64,000 bases of DNA, taken from the NCBI GenBank assembly GCA_031460175.1, contig JAVKGW010000008.1:1-64000 (forward strand), given 5' to 3'. The stretch is from Armatimonadota bacterium. Its GTDB lineage: Bacteria > Sysuimicrobiota > Sysuimicrobiia > Sysuimicrobiales > Sysuimicrobiaceae. The translations under genes and the position numbers were made by a program. The notes beneath the pieces are model-generated. The model ran no database searches. It saw only the letters and a list, made by a program, of their open reading frames with translations, and was not told the DNA's origin. This document shows, piece after piece, positions 18,159 through 24,623 of this stretch (the first letter of the stretch is position 1; every line of letters begins with the position of its first letter).

Positions 18159-20606
18159 TTACCTCCCGGCCGCCCCTCCCCCATCGTACGCGGCGTCCGT
18201 GGAGGAGGCGATCCCCTGCTCCACGGCCCATGCGGCGATCTGGGCCCGGGACCGGAAACCCAGTTTGTTGAGAATGTGCAGCACGTGGGTATCGACCGTG
18301 CGCTCGGAGACCCCGAGCTCTGCGGCGATGTCGCGGTTCGTGAGCCCGTGGGCGATCCAGCCCACCACCTGTCGCTCCCGCGGGGAGAGGCGCATGTTCC
18401 ACCTCTCCTCAAGGGCCTCCCGGATCACCTCCGCGAGGGGAAGGGTGCTTCCTTTGACGCGTTCCGCCTCAAATCCGGTCGCACCCAGGGCCGCACGGGC
18501 CCGGTGGGAGGCGGCCTCGATGACTGCGCGTTGGGGGACCGGCGGTGGGGCGCCCACCTGGCTTCGCAGGCCCTCCGCCGCCCCCAGCCACCGCGCCGTG
18601 GCCCGGGGATCCGTTGCGAGCGTGGCAAGTCCTTCCAGGCACTCCGCAACGCCCCTCCGGGATCCCAGGACCCAGCGCAGGGCTAAGCTATCGCGGTACA
18701 TCCGCCCGGCGTCCCTCCCCCGGTTCATGGCCCGAGCAGCCGCCCCGAGATCCGCCAGCGTCTCTGCGATCCGGATCTTGTCCTGCAGATCCCGGAACCG
18801 CCCAAGGCCCTGCTCCAGGAGGTTGTGGGCTTCCTCGTATCGGCCGAGCTGGTGGGCGGCCTGGCCCATCTCCTGGAGGCACACCGCCATGCCCCATGGA
18901 TCCCCGTGTTGCCGGTACAGGGCCATGGCCTCCAGGAGGAGGCTTCGGGCCTTTTCCGGCTTTCCCTTCGCGAGCGCCACCAGCGCGAGGCTGGAGCAGG
19001 AGATCGCCACGCCCCAGGGATGACCCGTCCCCCGGTAGCGCCGCAGTCCCTCCTTCAGGTAGGAAGCCGCGCGGCGGTAGTCCCCCCGGGCCAGGGCCAC
19101 GTGGGCGAGGATCCTCGAGGTGGAGGCAATTCCAAGCGCATCCCCCGCCGCGGTGAACCCCTCCAGGGCCGCCCGTCCCTGATCCTCGGCCACCCCGAGG
19201 TCGTCCATCACCCAGGCCAGTAACGCCAGGGCCCGCAGGGCCCGAGCCCGCGGAATCGATTTCCCCTCCCCCAGATCCAGGACGCGTCGGAGCCACATCC
19301 GGCCCTCGACCCAGTGCCCGCGCAGGGCCCAGAACTCCCCGAGGGCAGCCGCGAGGGCGAGGGCGGAGGAGGTGTCCGCGCGGTTCAGGAAAGCCTGGAT
19401 CGCCGCCCGCAAGTTGTCGTGCTCGGCCTCCAGCTGGTCCAGGGTTTCGGCCTGCACGGGACCCGCAAGGCCTGCATCGACCTGTTCCGCGAACGCGAGG
19501 AAGAAGTGGGCGTGTCGGACTTCCACCGCTTCGGCCTCCCCGCTCAGCCCGAGCTGCTCCAGGGCGAACTCCCGGATGGACTCCAGCATGCGGAATCGCA
19601 TGTGCCGTGCGGCGGGATCCCGATCCAATAGACTCTTGTCCAGGAGAGCGGCAAGTGCTTCCAGCATCCCCTCCTCAGGCACCCCGCAAACCGCCGCCGC
19701 TGCCTCCAGGGTGAAGCCGCCGCGGAACACTCCGAGCTGGCGGAAGACCCGCTTCAGGTCGGGCGGGAGCAGGGCGTAGCTCCACCCGATGGCGGCCCGC
19801 AGGGTCCGGTGGCGCTCCGGGAGATCCCGGGCCGCCCGGTCGAGCAGCGAAAGCCGGTGGTCCAGGCGCTCCAGGACGGCCTGAGGGGGGAGCGAGGCGA
19901 ACGCCGCGGCCGCGAGCTCCAGGGCCAGGGGAAGCCCGTCCAACCGCACGCACAGCTCGGCCACCGCCCGGGCGTTCCGGGCATCGAGCCGGAAAGCCCG
20001 GTCTACGGCCCTCACGCGGTCCACGAGGAGGGCCACGGAGGGGACCCTGAGGAGGCGGTCTACCCTCGAGAGGCCGCGGAGGTCGGGCACCTCGAGGGGG
20101 GCCACGTGAAACCGGTGTTCGCCCCGCAACCGCAGGGGCTCCCGGCTGGTGACGAGCACCTGCAGGCCTCCTGTCGCTTCCAGCAGGCGCGCCACTTCCC
20201 AGGCAGCCGCCACCAGGTGCTCGAAGTTGTCCAGCACCAGCAGCAGGCGCTTCTTCCACAGGGCCGTGCCGAGGTACTCCACGGGCGGTTGCCCCGGGGG
20301 AATCCGCACGCCCAAAACCCGGGCGACGGTCGGCACGGCCAAGGAGGCATCCGAAACGGGGGCCAGGTCCACGAAGCCGACGCCGTCCCGGAACGCTCCC
20401 GCGCAGCCGTGGGCGCATTCCACCGCGAGCCGGGTCTTCCCCACCCCGGGCGGCCCCGTCAGGGTCAGCAGCCGCACCCTGGACTCCATGAGGAGGGTGC
20501 AGACCTGCATGACCTCTCCCTTGCGCCCCACGAGGGGCGTGGTGGGCACGGGGATCCGGATGCGTCTCAAACCTCGCCCTCGGATGGAGCTTCCATCCCG
20601 GGGCAC
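18159..20606 (-). CDS. Large ATPase/TPR transcriptional regulator with LuxR HTH
   Basis: The 815-residue protein has an NTPase domain with Walker A GPPGVGKTR and Walker B LLLVLDNFEH, a winged-helix and TPR-rich middle (about 330-720), and a C-terminal LuxR-type HTH (LSPRERQVVGWIAHGLTNRD, GVSERTVDTHV). This is the architecture of LuxR-type ATPase activators (LAL/AfsR-like), where signal and ATP binding govern DNA binding. The start is uncertain: GTG 20606 and TTG 20570 are candidates, while the longest frame would run into the divergent sulfur-carrier gene. Targets are unknown; the divergent cysteine operon is the nearest candidate. Confidence 0.82.
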   Translation of the reverse strand: MPRDGSSIRGRGLRRIRIPVPTTPLVGRKGEVMQVCTLLMESRVRLLTLTGPPGVGKTRLAVECAHGCAGAFRDGVGFVDLAPVSDASLAVPTVARVLGVRIPPGQPPVEYLGTALWKKRLLLVLDNFEHLVAAAWEVARLLEATGGLQVLVTSREPLRLRGEHRFHVAPLEVPDLRGLSRVDRLLRVPSVALLVDRVRAVDRAFRLDARNARAVAELCVRLDGLPLALELAAAAFASLPPQAVLERLDHRLSLLDRAARDLPERHRTLRAAIGWSYALLPPDLKRVFRQLGVFRGGFTLEAAAAVCGVPEEGMLEALAALLDKSLLDRDPAARHMRFRMLESIREFALEQLGLSGEAEAVEVRHAHFFLAFAEQVDAGLAGPVQAETLDQLEAEHDNLRAAIQAFLNRADTSSALALAAALGEFWALRGHWVEGRMWLRRVLDLGEGKSIPRARALRALALLAWVMDDLGVAEDQGRAALEGFTAAGDALGIASTSRILAHVALARGDYRRAASYLKEGLRRYRGTGHPWGVAISCSSLALVALAKGKPEKARSLLLEAMALYRQHGDPWGMAVCLQEMGQAAHQLGRYEEAHNLLEQGLGRFRDLQDKIRIAETLADLGAAARAMNRGRDAGRMYRDSLALRWVLGSRRGVAECLEGLATLATDPRATARWLGAAEGLRSQVGAPPPVPQRAVIEAASHRARAALGATGFEAERVKGSTLPLAEVIREALEERWNMRLSPRERQVVGWIAHGLTNRDIAAELGVSERTVDTHVLHILNKLGFRSRAQIAAWAVEQGIASSTDAAYDGGGAAGR

Positions 20607-20681: not shown

Positions 20682-20960
20682 ATGCCGATCGTCTACCTTC
20701 CCACGCCCCTGCGCCGGCTGACGAACGGCCAGGCCCGGGTCCAGGTGCCGCCCGGTACCGTGGAGGAGGTGCTCCATGCCCTAGACGCCCAGTTCCCCGG
20801 GCTGCGGGCCCAGATCTGCGACGAACAGGGCGAGGTGAAGGCCTTCATTAACGTGTTCGTGAACGGCACGGAGATCCGGGCGCTCCAGGGCCGCAAGACC
20901 CTCGTGGGCCCGGAGGATGAGGTGTCCATCATCCCCGCCATGGCGGGAGGCAAGCGGTGA
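20682..20960 (+). CDS. MoaD/ThiS-family sulfur carrier protein (CysO-like)
   Basis: The 92-residue ubiquitin-fold protein has VQVPPGTVEEVLHALDAQFP, FINVFVNG and a C-terminal PEDEVSIIPAMAGGKR. Carriers of this family are thiocarboxylated on a terminal Gly-Gly and donate sulfur. Here Lys-Arg follow the Gly-Gly, so the tail would need trimming before activation. The JAMM protease encoded four genes downstream is the obvious candidate. The genetic setting (CysM and JAMM protease) points to a CysO-like role in cysteine synthesis rather than molybdopterin. No activating E1-like enzyme is in the window. GAGGTGAACC precedes the ATG, and the stop overlaps the next start. Confidence 0.88.
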   Translation: MPIVYLPTPLRRLTNGQARVQVPPGTVEEVLHALDAQFPGLRAQICDEQGEVKAFINVFVNGTEIRALQGRKTLVGPEDEVSIIPAMAGGKR

Positions 20961-21808
20961 CGGGCGGAGAGAGTTCCGCGGGCTTGCTCCCGGCGATCCA
21001 CCGGGCCTTCCCGGACCTGGCCTTCGTGCCCACGGAGGACGTCCTGCTGCACGAGGAGTGCGATCCCGAACGGGTGGCGCGTCTGTGTGAGCGCCTGCGG
21101 GAGGAGGGGGTCCTCCGCAATCCGCCCATCGCCGCGCGGCTGGGATCCCGGGCGGTGGTCCTGGACGGTGCCAACCGCACGGAGGCCTTGCGGGAACTGG
21201 GCGCCTGCTACGTCCTCCTGCAGCGGGTGGACTACGAGGATCCCGCGGTGGAACTCCGCACCTGGCGGCACCTGGTCACGGAGGTTCCCCCGGACCTGGA
21301 AGACCGCCTCCGGGAGCTGATGCCCGTGGAGCGGATGGAGCACCGGGAGGCGGTGCGGGCCCTGGAGGAGGGACGGATCCTGGCGTACATGTGGCGACCC
21401 GAGGGCACCCTCGGGCTTCCGCGCGGCGCCGACCTCTTGGAGGACGTCGCACGGCTGCGGGCCCTCGTGGCCGCGTATAAGGGTACCGCCCGCATCCACC
21501 GGGTCCTGGGCGAGGATCCCGAGGTCCTGGCCCGGGAGTACGGGGAGGTGGGCATGCTGGTGGTTTTCCCCACGTTTGCCAAGCGGGAGATCCTGGAGAT
21601 GGCGCACAACGGCCTGAAGCTCCCTACAGGGATCACGCGGCACGTGATTCCGGGACGGGCCCTGCGGGTGAACATGCCCCTGGAGCGGATGCTCCGGGAA
21701 GATCCCCTCCCATCCCTCCAGGCGTGGCTGGAGAGGTGGATGCGGGAAAAGGTGCGCACCCACCAGGTGCGGTACTACGCGGAGCCCACGTTCCTGTTCG
21801 ACGAGTGA
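20957..21808 (+). CDS. ParB/Srx-fold protein, probable free-serine kinase (SerK/SbnI-like)
   Basis: The 283-residue protein has an N-terminal ParB/sulfiredoxin-like domain with VLLHEECDPERV and VVLDGANRTEALRELG. Archaeal SerK and staphylococcal SbnI share this fold, with a catalytic Glu near the first motif and a DGxxR-type phosphate-binding motif. They phosphorylate free serine to O-phosphoserine. A C-terminal domain of about 150 residues follows. The GTG start overlaps the carrier stop (GTGA), and CysM follows after four bases, so the context strongly favours phosphoserine supply over DNA partition. Kinase activity is inferred, not proven by sequence. Confidence 0.7.
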   Translation: MTGGESSAGLLPAIHRAFPDLAFVPTEDVLLHEECDPERVARLCERLREEGVLRNPPIAARLGSRAVVLDGANRTEALRELGACYVLLQRVDYEDPAVELRTWRHLVTEVPPDLEDRLRELMPVERMEHREAVRALEEGRILAYMWRPEGTLGLPRGADLLEDVARLRALVAAYKGTARIHRVLGEDPEVLAREYGEVGMLVVFPTFAKREILEMAHNGLKLPTGITRHVIPGRALRVNMPLERMLREDPLPSLQAWLERWMREKVRTHQVRYYAEPTFLFDE

Positions 21809-21812
21809 GGCC

Positions 21813-22751
21813 ATGGCGTACCGGTTCGTCTCCGCGAAACCCCAGATCGGCGAGGACCTGCTGAACCGGATCGGAAACACGCCGTTGCTGCGCCTGCGCA
21901 GGATCTCCCAGGATCTGCCCCCGGGGGTGGAGATCTACATCAAGGCGGAGTGGTTCAACCCGGGGGGATCCGTGAAGGACCGGCCCGTGCTTCGGATGAT
22001 CGAGGAGGCGGAGCGGGCGGGGCTTCTGACCCCCGACAAGATCATCCTGGATTCCACCAGCGGCAACGCGGGCATCGCCTACGCCATGATCGGGGCCGTG
22101 AAGGGCTACCGGGTGAAGCTCGTGATGCCCGCCAACGCCAGCGAGGAGCGCAAGCGCCGCATCCGGGCGTACGGGGCGGAGATCGTCTTCTCGGATCCCC
22201 TGGAGGGGTCCGACGGCGCCATCCTCCTGGCGCGGGAGATCTACGCCCAGGACCCCGACCGGTACTACAAGCCGGACCAGTACAACAACCCCGCCAACTG
22301 GCGCGCCCACTACGACACCACGGGCCCGGAGATCATCGCGCAGACGGAGGGACGCATCACCCACTTCGTGGGCACCCTGGGGACCACGGGCACCGTCACC
22401 GGGGTGGGCCGGCGGCTGCGGGAGTTCTCCCCGGACGTGGAGGTCATCGCGGTGGAGCCCGACAGCCCCCTCCACGCCATCGAGGGCCTCAAGCACATCG
22501 AGAGCTCGATCCGGCCCGGGATCTACGATCCCACGGTCCACCACCGGAAGATCGGGGTGAGCACAGAGGCCGCGTACGAGATGGCCCGGCGGCTGGCCCG
22601 GGAGGAGGCCCTGTTCGTGGGACCGTCCACAGGGGCGGCCATGGCCGCGGCCCTGCAGGTGGCCCGGGAACTGGAAGAGGCCGTGATGGTGGTCCTGGCC
22701 CCGGACGGGGGGGACCGGTACCTCACCACCCCGCTCTGGCGGGATCTGTGA
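21813..22751 (+). CDS. cysM: Cysteine synthase, CysM type
   Basis: The 312-residue fold-type II PLP enzyme has IGNTPLLRL, NPGGSVKDRP with the PLP-binding Lys55, STSGNAGIAYA (the substrate loop), VGTLGTTGTVTGVGRR and VGPSTGAA. Overall it resembles Mycobacterium CysM, which uses O-phosphoserine and a thiocarboxylated CysO. Clustering with a carrier, a serine kinase-like protein and a JAMM protease supports that substrate use. Ordinary O-acetylserine sulfhydrylase activity cannot be excluded from sequence. Confidence 0.92.
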   Translation: MAYRFVSAKPQIGEDLLNRIGNTPLLRLRRISQDLPPGVEIYIKAEWFNPGGSVKDRPVLRMIEEAERAGLLTPDKIILDSTSGNAGIAYAMIGAVKGYRVKLVMPANASEERKRRIRAYGAEIVFSDPLEGSDGAILLAREIYAQDPDRYYKPDQYNNPANWRAHYDTTGPEIIAQTEGRITHFVGTLGTTGTVTGVGRRLREFSPDVEVIAVEPDSPLHAIEGLKHIESSIRPGIYDPTVHHRKIGVSTEAAYEMARRLAREEALFVGPSTGAAMAAALQVARELEEAVMVVLAPDGGDRYLTTPLWRDL

Positions 22752-22766
22752 AAGGGGAGTAAAGTG

Positions 22767-23162
22767 ATGTTGAGGATCCGAGCCGATCACCTGGAGGAGA
22801 TGGTGGCCCACGCCCGGGCGGAAGCCCCGAACGAGTGCGTGGGGCTGCTCTTCGGCCGGGACGGACGGGTGGAGCGGATCTGGCGGGGGACGAACGTGCA
22901 TCGGAGTCCCTTTTCCTACCAGATGGACCCCGCGGAGCTGCTGCGGGCGTTCCGGGAGATGGAGGCCGCGGGCCTGGAGCTGGTGGGGATCTACCACTCC
23001 CATCCTGCGTCTCCCGCCTACCCCTCAAGGACGGATGTGGCCCGGGCGTACTATCCGGAGGCGGCATACGTCATCATCTCCCTCCAGGAGGACCCTCCTT
23101 CGGTGCGGGCGTTCCGGATCCAGGACGGCCGGGTCACGGAAGAGGACGTGAGGGTGGAATGA
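22767..23162 (+). CDS. JAMM/MPN+ metalloprotease (Mec+-like)
   Basis: The 131-residue protein carries a complete JAMM zinc site: Glu23 in NECVGLL, then His77-Ser-His79-Pro and Asp90, in the order H-x-H-x10-D. In Mycobacterium, Mec+ cuts cysteine from the CysO-cysteine adduct made by CysM; related JAMM proteases trim carriers that have extra residues after Gly-Gly. Both jobs are possible here. I chose ATG 22767 over GTG 22764 because GGGGAG lies nine bases before it. The stop overlaps the next start (ATGA). Confidence 0.92.
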   Translation: MLRIRADHLEEMVAHARAEAPNECVGLLFGRDGRVERIWRGTNVHRSPFSYQMDPAELLRAFREMEAAGLELVGIYHSHPASPAYPSRTDVARAYYPEAAYVIISLQEDPPSVRAFRIQDGRVTEEDVRVE

Positions 23163-23617
23163 GGGTTTCCACACGGGCGGAGTACGGCATCCGGGCCCTC
23201 ATCGACCTCGCCATGTTCGAGGCTCTGGGGCCGGTGCAGACCCACGACATCGCCCGCCGCCAGGGACTCCCGGAACCCTACCTCAACCAGATCCTCAGTG
23301 CCCTGCGGCGGGCGGGGCTCGTGGTGAGCAAGCGGGGGCCTGGCGGGGGACACCTGTTGAGCCGCCCGCCGGAGGAGATCTACCTGGCGGACGTCTTCCT
23401 TGCCCTGGAGGGCACTCCCTCGCCCTGGGAGTGCGTGGACACCTCCGATCCCAACTGCGCCTTCGCGCTCGGCTGTGGCCTGCGGCCCCTGTGGCAGCGG
23501 ATCAAGGAGGCAACAGAGCACGTCCTCCGCACCACCACCCTCGCCGACCTCCTCCCGCGTCCCCTCCTCCCAGCCCAGCCGGATCGCGGCAGGCTCCGCC
23601 CCTCCACCCGCGTCTAG
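23159..23617 (+). CDS. Rrf2-family transcriptional regulator with three-cysteine motif
   Basis: The 152-residue protein starts MRVSTRAEYGIRAL and has the Rrf2 winged helix with recognition segment EPYLNQILSALRRAGLV. Cys92, Cys100 and Cys106 (C-x7-C-x5-C) are spaced as in Rrf2 proteins that bind an iron-sulfur cluster, such as IscR and NsrR. As the last gene of the cysteine operon it may sense sulfur or Fe-S status and regulate the operon, like CymR or IscR. It may bind no cluster, which sequence alone cannot tell. Confidence 0.9.
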   Translation: MRVSTRAEYGIRALIDLAMFEALGPVQTHDIARRQGLPEPYLNQILSALRRAGLVVSKRGPGGGHLLSRPPEEIYLADVFLALEGTPSPWECVDTSDPNCAFALGCGLRPLWQRIKEATEHVLRTTTLADLLPRPLLPAQPDRGRLRPSTRV

Positions 23618-23691: not shown

Positions 23692-24372
23692 ATGGGGAAG
23701 CCGTTGACGAAACCGGAGCAGGAGTCCTGGACGGTGCACCGGGATGTGGGAACATCCCCTCCCGCAGACACCGTCGCGCGCCGCAAGCGGTTCGAGGAGA
23801 TGGTGGCCCAGCACCTGGACGCCCTCTACGCGGCGGCCCTCCGGCTCACCCGGAACCGTCAGGATGCGGAGGACTTGCTGCAGGAGACCCTGCTGAAGGC
23901 GTGGCGGTCCTACCACACCTTCGAGGAGGGCACCAACGCCCGGGCGTGGCTGTTCCGCATCCTGATGAACGCCCACATCGACCGGTACCGCAAGGCCACC
24001 CGGGAACCCGAGCTGAGCGACGTGGAGGACGTGGGCGAGTTCTACCTGTACACCAAGGTGCAGGAGTCCGAGCAGCTACGGGGGGCGGGAGACCCGGAGA
24101 GGCTGCTGGAGCGCATCATGGAGCACGAGGTGCGGGAGGCCCTGGAGAGCCTTCCCGAGCACTTCCGCCGCGTGGTGATCCTCGCGGACCTGCAGGGCTT
24201 CTCGTATAAAGAGATCGCGGACATCCTGGGGATCCCCGTGGGGACCGTCATGTCCCGCCTCTTCCGGGGCCGGAGGTTGCTGCAGAAGAAGCTGTGGGAC
24301 TACGTGCGGACCCACCATCGGATCTCGGCGGGCCCATCCGCCTCATCAGAGGCCGGTGCGGCCGAGGGGTAG
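23692..24372 (+). CDS. ECF-family RNA polymerase sigma factor
   Basis: The 226-residue protein has sigma-2 (LDALYAAALRLTRNRQDAED, then ETLLKAWRSYHTFEEGTNA) and sigma-4 (LPEHFRRVVILADLQGFSY, GIPVGTVMSRLFRGRRLLQ). It lacks regions 1.1 and 3, as in group 4 (ECF) factors of the SigE/SigH/RpoE class. The next gene encodes a zinc anti-sigma protein and starts on the last base of this stop codon, a classic sigma/anti-sigma pair. The stimulus is probably redox or envelope stress. Targets may include the efflux genes downstream, which is inference. Confidence 0.92.
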   Translation: MGKPLTKPEQESWTVHRDVGTSPPADTVARRKRFEEMVAQHLDALYAAALRLTRNRQDAEDLLQETLLKAWRSYHTFEEGTNARAWLFRILMNAHIDRYRKATREPELSDVEDVGEFYLYTKVQESEQLRGAGDPERLLERIMEHEVREALESLPEHFRRVVILADLQGFSYKEIADILGIPVGTVMSRLFRGRRLLQKKLWDYVRTHHRISAGPSASSEAGAAEG

Positions 24373-24623
24373 TGGGGGCGAGCGTCTTGGACTGCCGGGA
24401 GTTCGCACAACGGCTCTGGACGTTCCTGGACGGGGAGCTCGATGACGGCGCCTGCCAGGAGCTCCGGGCGCACCTGGAGCGGTGCCCGGAGTGCTGGGCG
24501 CACTACCGGTTCGAGGGGGTCCTCCGCGACTTCGTCCGCCGGTGCTGCCAGGAGCCCGCTCCGGAGATCGTCCGCCGCCGCGTGATCCGATTCATCGCCC
24601 GGCTCACCGCCCGCGAAGGGTAG
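24372..24623 (+). CDS. Zinc-binding anti-sigma factor (ZAS/zf-HC2)
   Basis: The 83-residue protein has the ZAS motif HLERCPEC (H-x3-C-x2-C) preceded by LDCREFAQRLWTFLDGELDD. It has no membrane helix, so it resembles soluble RsrA-type redox-sensing anti-sigma factors. It should hold the upstream ECF sigma factor until oxidation or zinc loss. The start is GTG 24372 after GAGGGGT; TTG 24387 is an alternative. An additional CC pair occurs near residue 57. Confidence 0.87.
   Translation: MGASVLDCREFAQRLWTFLDGELDDGACQELRAHLERCPECWAHYRFEGVLRDFVRRCCQEPAPEIVRRRVIRFIARLTAREG

Follow-up and report, generated by a model that had tools for sequence, protein, structure and literature searches.

Gene organization of the locus

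Five genes form one compact cluster on the forward strand at positions 20682–23617 of the window, by which we mean the whole stretch of 64,000 nucleotides that was analyzed, and successive reading frames either overlap or are separated by at most 12 bp. The first gene (20682–20960) encodes a CysO-like sulfur carrier of the ThiS/MoaD type (ThiS, 2.8e-12) whose C-terminus reads PAMAGG-KR. The second (20957–21808) has a GTG start within a GTGA overlap with the carrier gene, and its product, of the SbnI/SerK type with a ParB/Srx fold, is a probable free-serine kinase judging from its sequence and modeled structure. After a gap of 4 bp follows a CysM-type cysteine synthase (21813–22751; PALP, 4e-75), which probably uses O-phosphoserine and a carrier thiocarboxylate, and after a further 12 bp a JAMM peptidase (22764–23162; Prok-JAB, 5e-30), a predicted carrier-cysteine hydrolase and probable processing enzyme of the pro-carrier. 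The last gene, which overlaps the fourth through ATGA (23159–23617; Rrf2, 2e-38), encodes an Rrf2 regulator with three cysteines (C92, C100 and C106), probably of the Fe-S type.

A sequence-only reading had proposed both this cluster and its families (MoaD-like, SerK/SbnI-like, CysM, JAMM and Rrf2); the reading frames are there, and profile or PDB matches bear out the families. Pfam gives strong domain matches for four of the five proteins, the exception being the ParB-like protein, for which no Pfam match was found. Two associated genes lie directly downstream on the same strand: a SigH/SigR-type ECF sigma factor (23692–24372; Sigma70 r2/r4; TIGR02947 at 195 bits, below the cut-off of 251.55) and an RsrA-like anti-sigma factor (24294–24623; zf-HC2; TIGR03988 antisig_RsrA at 78.7 bits, above the cut-off of 62.5). 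Upstream and divergent, at 18159–20600 on the reverse strand, lies a large LuxR-type ATPase/TPR regulator. Scans of the operon region found no promoters or terminators. The host genome measures 2.49 Mb and is 98.9% complete.

Conservation of the operon

Named contigs of related genomes (CSP1-3, ANGP1, 'Armatimonadetes') place the window in the little-studied phylum CSP1-3/Sysuimicrobiota (described in PMC11604079). Relatives had to be found by alignment, since a scan of genome contigs with a single protein gave no confirmed relative. When all five genes are sought together, as the sequence-only reading had suggested, the set recurs in the same order and on the same strand in 17 of the 19 larger neighborhoods of the phylum, and the SerK-like gene is present in 39/43 phylum genomes, so the clustering is not due to chance. 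The two exceptions (L043 and L044) both belong to genus g10, where SerK-JAMM-Rrf2 is retained and the carrier and CysM do not lie beside it. The same genus has a second SerK copy, partial or interrupted, beside a CBS-like gene (G010:C293, G009:C141). Four genomes have no SerK: two are incomplete and show only a partial CysM (G015, G037), while the other two (G005 and G042, 97% and 89% complete) also lack an operon-type CysM. In these last two, and only these two cases, SerK and CysM are lost together.

The operon is longer in many of the phylum's families, where it runs from a PF01053 enzyme (cystathionine gamma-synthase/lyase) through carrier, cystathionine beta-synthase (CBS), SerK, CysM and JAMM to Rrf2. 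Because the PF01053 enzyme and CBS stand alongside SerK-CysM, two cysteine routes are combined in one operon. This transsulfuration pair is missing from the operon in the window's genus.

Among the 80 loci retained, the five-gene set is confined to the phylum. The SerK-like family itself is common in Chloroflexota and also occurs in Eisenbacteria, Ignavibacteria and others, mostly without the carrier and often behind CBS. One Anaerolineales chromosome (L091, Chloroflexota) carries Suf genes followed by SerK, carrier, rhodanese/E1 and CysM, which we count as an independent association of SerK, carrier and CysM, and another locus (L109) reads SerK, carrier, Fe-S assembly protein, CysM, E1. The avoidance between SerK and CysE in Chloroflexota is weak (3/12 versus 61/109, p = 0.065). 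SerK-like genes are also present in Thermoflexus (L096, L107, L111 and L113), a genus for which standard pathway maps predict cysteine auxotrophy (PMC8129789).

The SerK/SbnI-like protein

By sequence, the ParB-like protein matches SbnI (5uje, 4e-14) and SerK (5x0b, 5e-9) in the PDB. Its AlphaFold (AF2) model, with a pLDDT of 91, aligns over the whole length with the same two structures (E = 1.6e-19 for 5uje and 4.7e-18 for 5x0b; TM 0.80, by target length). Sulfiredoxin and the ParB CTPases align mostly over ∼80 residues, the latter with a TMt near 0.3, and because of this short alignment to the CTPases we reject a role in chromosome partition. Residue E33 aligns with the catalytic E30 of SerK, the position altered in the mutant PDB structures 5x0g and 5x0k, and is invariant in 80/80 homologs. 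The same holds for H32, D70, G71, R74, W103 and R228 across these homologs, which come from several phyla, while position 227 is occupied by Thr or Ser. With sequence matches, whole-length fold and catalytic Glu all in agreement, the earlier assignment to a ParB/Srx protein like SerK and SbnI holds.

The protein also differs from both relatives. Identity to SerK of Thermococcus kodakarensis and SbnI of Staphylococcus is 20–22%, the likeness lying in the fold and in the HE, DG, R, W and TR residues, and the NCBIfam scores fall far below the equivalog cut-offs (63.8 of 350 for SbnI, 41.4 of 380 for SerK). The shared DGxHR motif reads DGANR here, keeping Asp, Gly and Arg but replacing His with Asn; eight homologs outside the phylum have Thr at this position. 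The C-terminus is longer than that of SerK, a feature shared with SbnI. The idea that the archaeal SerK route has been joined to a carrier route needs correcting on one point: a SerK/SbnI-type gene does sit in a carrier operon, but the probable kinase resembles SbnI of bacteria more closely than SerK of archaea. SbnI serves staphyloferrin B rather than carrier-based cysteine synthesis, and archaeal serK, unlike the gene here, is not in an operon with genes for the latter. An archaeal SerK-like protein is reported to bind CTP in a survey of the ParB fold (PMC12704722).

Sequence and model suggest that the protein is a serine kinase, which would supply CysM with O-phosphoserine. Such a supply could also come from elsewhere: the window's genome has a SerA gene with a class-V aminotransferase gene just upstream, so O-phosphoserine may derive from 3-phosphoglycerate, and T. 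kodakarensis likewise has both sources (PMC5120207). The SbnI-like protein could then be a regulator, or a kinase for another enzyme such as the CBS of its relatives, with CysM fed by SerA and the aminotransferase as in mycobacteria. The exchange of the shared His for Asn would fit such a role, as would the naming of SbnI as a bifunctional regulator/kinase in PDB and NCBIfam and the position of SerK directly behind CBS, rather than CysM, in many Chloroflexota. However, SerK and CysM are adjacent, with overlaps or short gaps, at nearly all loci of the phylum, including the window, where CBS was lost, and the catalytic Glu, Asp, Arg and Trp do not vary. We regard this alternative as unlikely.

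The carrier and the JAMM peptidase

The closest PDB relatives of the carrier are CysO (3dwg_C, 2.6e-11) and 4n6e_B. Unlike in CysO, the GG is not C-terminal, AGG being followed by KR. Among 28 carriers of the phylum, 22 have 1–25 residues beyond the GG, with no evident conservation, a single one ends at the GG, and five, from four genera, are fused in frame to a cystathionine beta-synthase with CBS domains (L041:7955–9598, L042:10180–11823, L048:5040–6737, L075:3693–5399 and L084:6079–7824). The ThiS, PALP and CBS domains were confirmed in the fusions of L041 and L048, and in the model of a carrier-CBS fusion (moderate, mean pLDDT 72) the GG lies within a low-confidence linker. A C-terminal extension is not special to the operon carrier: it occurs on a second ThiS protein encoded by the genome, whereas a third ends exactly at GG. 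At L064 (G000:C2, about 159700) a ThiS domain forms the C-terminus of a long reading frame that ends exactly at GG and adjoins an apparent PAPS reductase; it is probably a carrier for sulfate assimilation.

Because an internal GG must be exposed by cutting before it can be thiocarboxylated, these carriers require a processing peptidase. The operon JAMM, whose motif is intact (E24, H78-S-H80, S88 and D91 are at least 97% conserved in 30 orthologs), is the obvious candidate, and given the residues after the GG and the CBS fusions it probably matures the carrier besides releasing cysteine. The QbsD/QbsE system also has a JAMM-processed carrier. In Deinococcus, a JAMM (DRJAMM) cuts MoaD-MoaE (PMC8832034). 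These systems share with the operon a ThiS/MoaD carrier whose GG is hidden by a C-terminal extension or a fused enzyme, and a JAMM in the genome. In contrast to both systems, the fusion partner here is cystathionine beta-synthase, and the processing is predicted.

Carrier and JAMM might instead be a separate protein-modification pair of the SAMP/TtuB type, or a tRNA-thiolation pair, with no more than the operon in common with a CysM using O-phosphoserine and free sulfide. In NCBIfam the carrier does score as SAMP1 (60.8, cut-off 60) and desampylase is the nearest family for the JAMM, and genus g10 keeps JAMM and SerK without an adjacent carrier or CysM. Against this, the best PDB match of the carrier is CysO, carrier and CysM are co-located in Chloroflexota too, and in genus g15 CysM and JAMM form single polypeptides (L041:10424–11842, 473 aa; L042:7925–9325, 467 aa; a third is partial, at a contig end), a fusion which ties the JAMM to the product of CysM. 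A separate modification or thiolation pair thus seems rather improbable to us.

The substrate of CysM

The cysteine synthase scores slightly below the TIGR01138 cut-off (384.6 versus 394.2 bits) and keeps the PLP lysine, K51. The position of R220 in Mycobacterium tuberculosis CysM, an arginine with a role in the use of O-phosphoserine, is Lys in all aligned orthologs except one, where it is Arg. E. coli CysM is also basic at this position. Lys for R220 is a conservative change that falls short of proof for O-phosphoserine, and a basic residue there is not specific for this substrate.

In the window's genome no CysE match exceeds the cut-off and none is full-length, and in the phylum cysE scores above cut-off in 1/43 genomes (G004). 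Six proteins of the genome match PALP, and by our reading the operon CysM is the only cysteine synthase among them, the other five being two ThrC, two threonine-dehydratase-like enzymes and one TrpB-like enzyme, with no cystathionine beta-synthase among the six. Because CysE is missing and the operon CysM is the sole cysteine synthase, O-phosphoserine is its expected substrate, and use of the carrier as sulfur donor would follow the mycobacterial precedent. That CysM instead takes O-acetylserine from an unrecognized acetyltransferase, in ordinary cysteine synthesis with accessory genes, is very improbable: CysM does belong to the CysK/CysM family and some hexapeptide-repeat proteins of the genome give weak partial cysE matches (at most 32 bits), but CysE matches are as scarce as just described and a serine kinase-like gene lies inside the operon.

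Regulation

The three cysteines of the Rrf2 protein are invariant in 22/22 orthologs and for this reason it is probably of the Fe-S type; such a set points away from a cysteine regulator of the CymR type and towards an Fe-S sensor. Upstream of the carrier genes, no inverted repeat common to them stood out as an operator. SigH/SigR-RsrA pairs answer thiol oxidation in actinobacteria. The ECF sigma and RsrA-like genes (23692–24623 in the window) mostly come next after Rrf2 across the phylum, and by analogy this pair likely exerts thiol-stress control. In mycobacteria, oxidative stress induces moeZ-mec-cysO-cysM (PMC11361707).

A probable carrier-dependent pathway with its own serine kinase

The sequence-only reading had proposed a phosphoserine-based, protein-bound synthesis of cysteine, and the CysO-like carrier, CysM, JAMM and SbnI/SerK-fold protein, their conserved neighborhood and the missing CysE all point the same way. 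We consider it probable that the operon encodes a route to cysteine of the CysO/CysM/Mec type that depends on the carrier and O-phosphoserine and has a serine kinase of its own. The carrier would be made as a precursor and trimmed by JAMM after AGG. A MoeB/MoeZ-type E1 with a rhodanese domain would then, by analogy with mycobacteria, adenylate the freed GG and lead to the thiocarboxylate. A suitable enzyme is encoded outside the operon (L054:5104–6285; ThiF 1e-82, Rhodanese 3.5e-19) and is the single full ThiF match in the genome; in two g16 genomes the gene for the E1-rhodanese protein is found downstream, ∼4 kb from the cluster. CysM would convert O-phosphoserine to aminoacrylate, which would take sulfur from carrier-COSH to give a carrier-cysteine adduct, and JAMM would cleave the adduct into cysteine and carrier. 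The Rrf2 protein would probably tune the operon through an Fe-S cluster.

The mycobacterial pathway has been known since 2005, according to references in PMC3227635. The mycobacterial mec-cysO-cysM operon with MoeZ likewise combines a CysO-like carrier, CysM and JAMM, with the E1-rhodanese elsewhere in the genome. Here, in contrast, the operon includes the SbnI/SerK-like gene and Rrf2, the gene order is different, the carrier is a precursor with a non-terminal GG, CysM has Lys for R220, and the ECF sigma/RsrA pair lies directly downstream. Operons of ThiS/MoaD, E1, JAB and cysteine synthase (type 4c) were described in 2006 by Iyer et al. (PMC1779556); they also bring carrier, JAB and cysteine synthase together, but no ParB/SerK-like gene is mentioned, and the E1 is outside the operon in the window while it is inside in the Chloroflexota locus L091. 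The earlier claim that the combination is unusual must therefore be narrowed: joining carrier, JAB and cysteine synthase in one operon is not new, and what looks new in the literature searched is the added kinase gene, the precursor carrier with its CBS fusion, and the CysM-JAMM fusion. In that limited literature we found no published description of a kinase in a carrier-based cysteine operon. More tentatively, the phylum as a whole may possess an undescribed pathway in which a carrier-dependent CysM is fed by a serine kinase dedicated to it and one JAMM first cleaves the precursor or CBS fusion and later releases cysteine, a possibility to which we give somewhat less than even weight.

If the proposed pathway is correct, it would explain how cysteine is synthesized in a phylum almost without recognized serine acetyltransferase, and would bring the SbnI/SerK kinases, so far linked with siderophores and archaea, into the cysteine synthesis of bacteria. 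The natural carrier-enzyme and CysM-JAMM fusions offer a direct test of precursor processing and product release. The results also suggest that calls of cysteine auxotrophy made from CysE and CysK alone may be wrong in such lineages.
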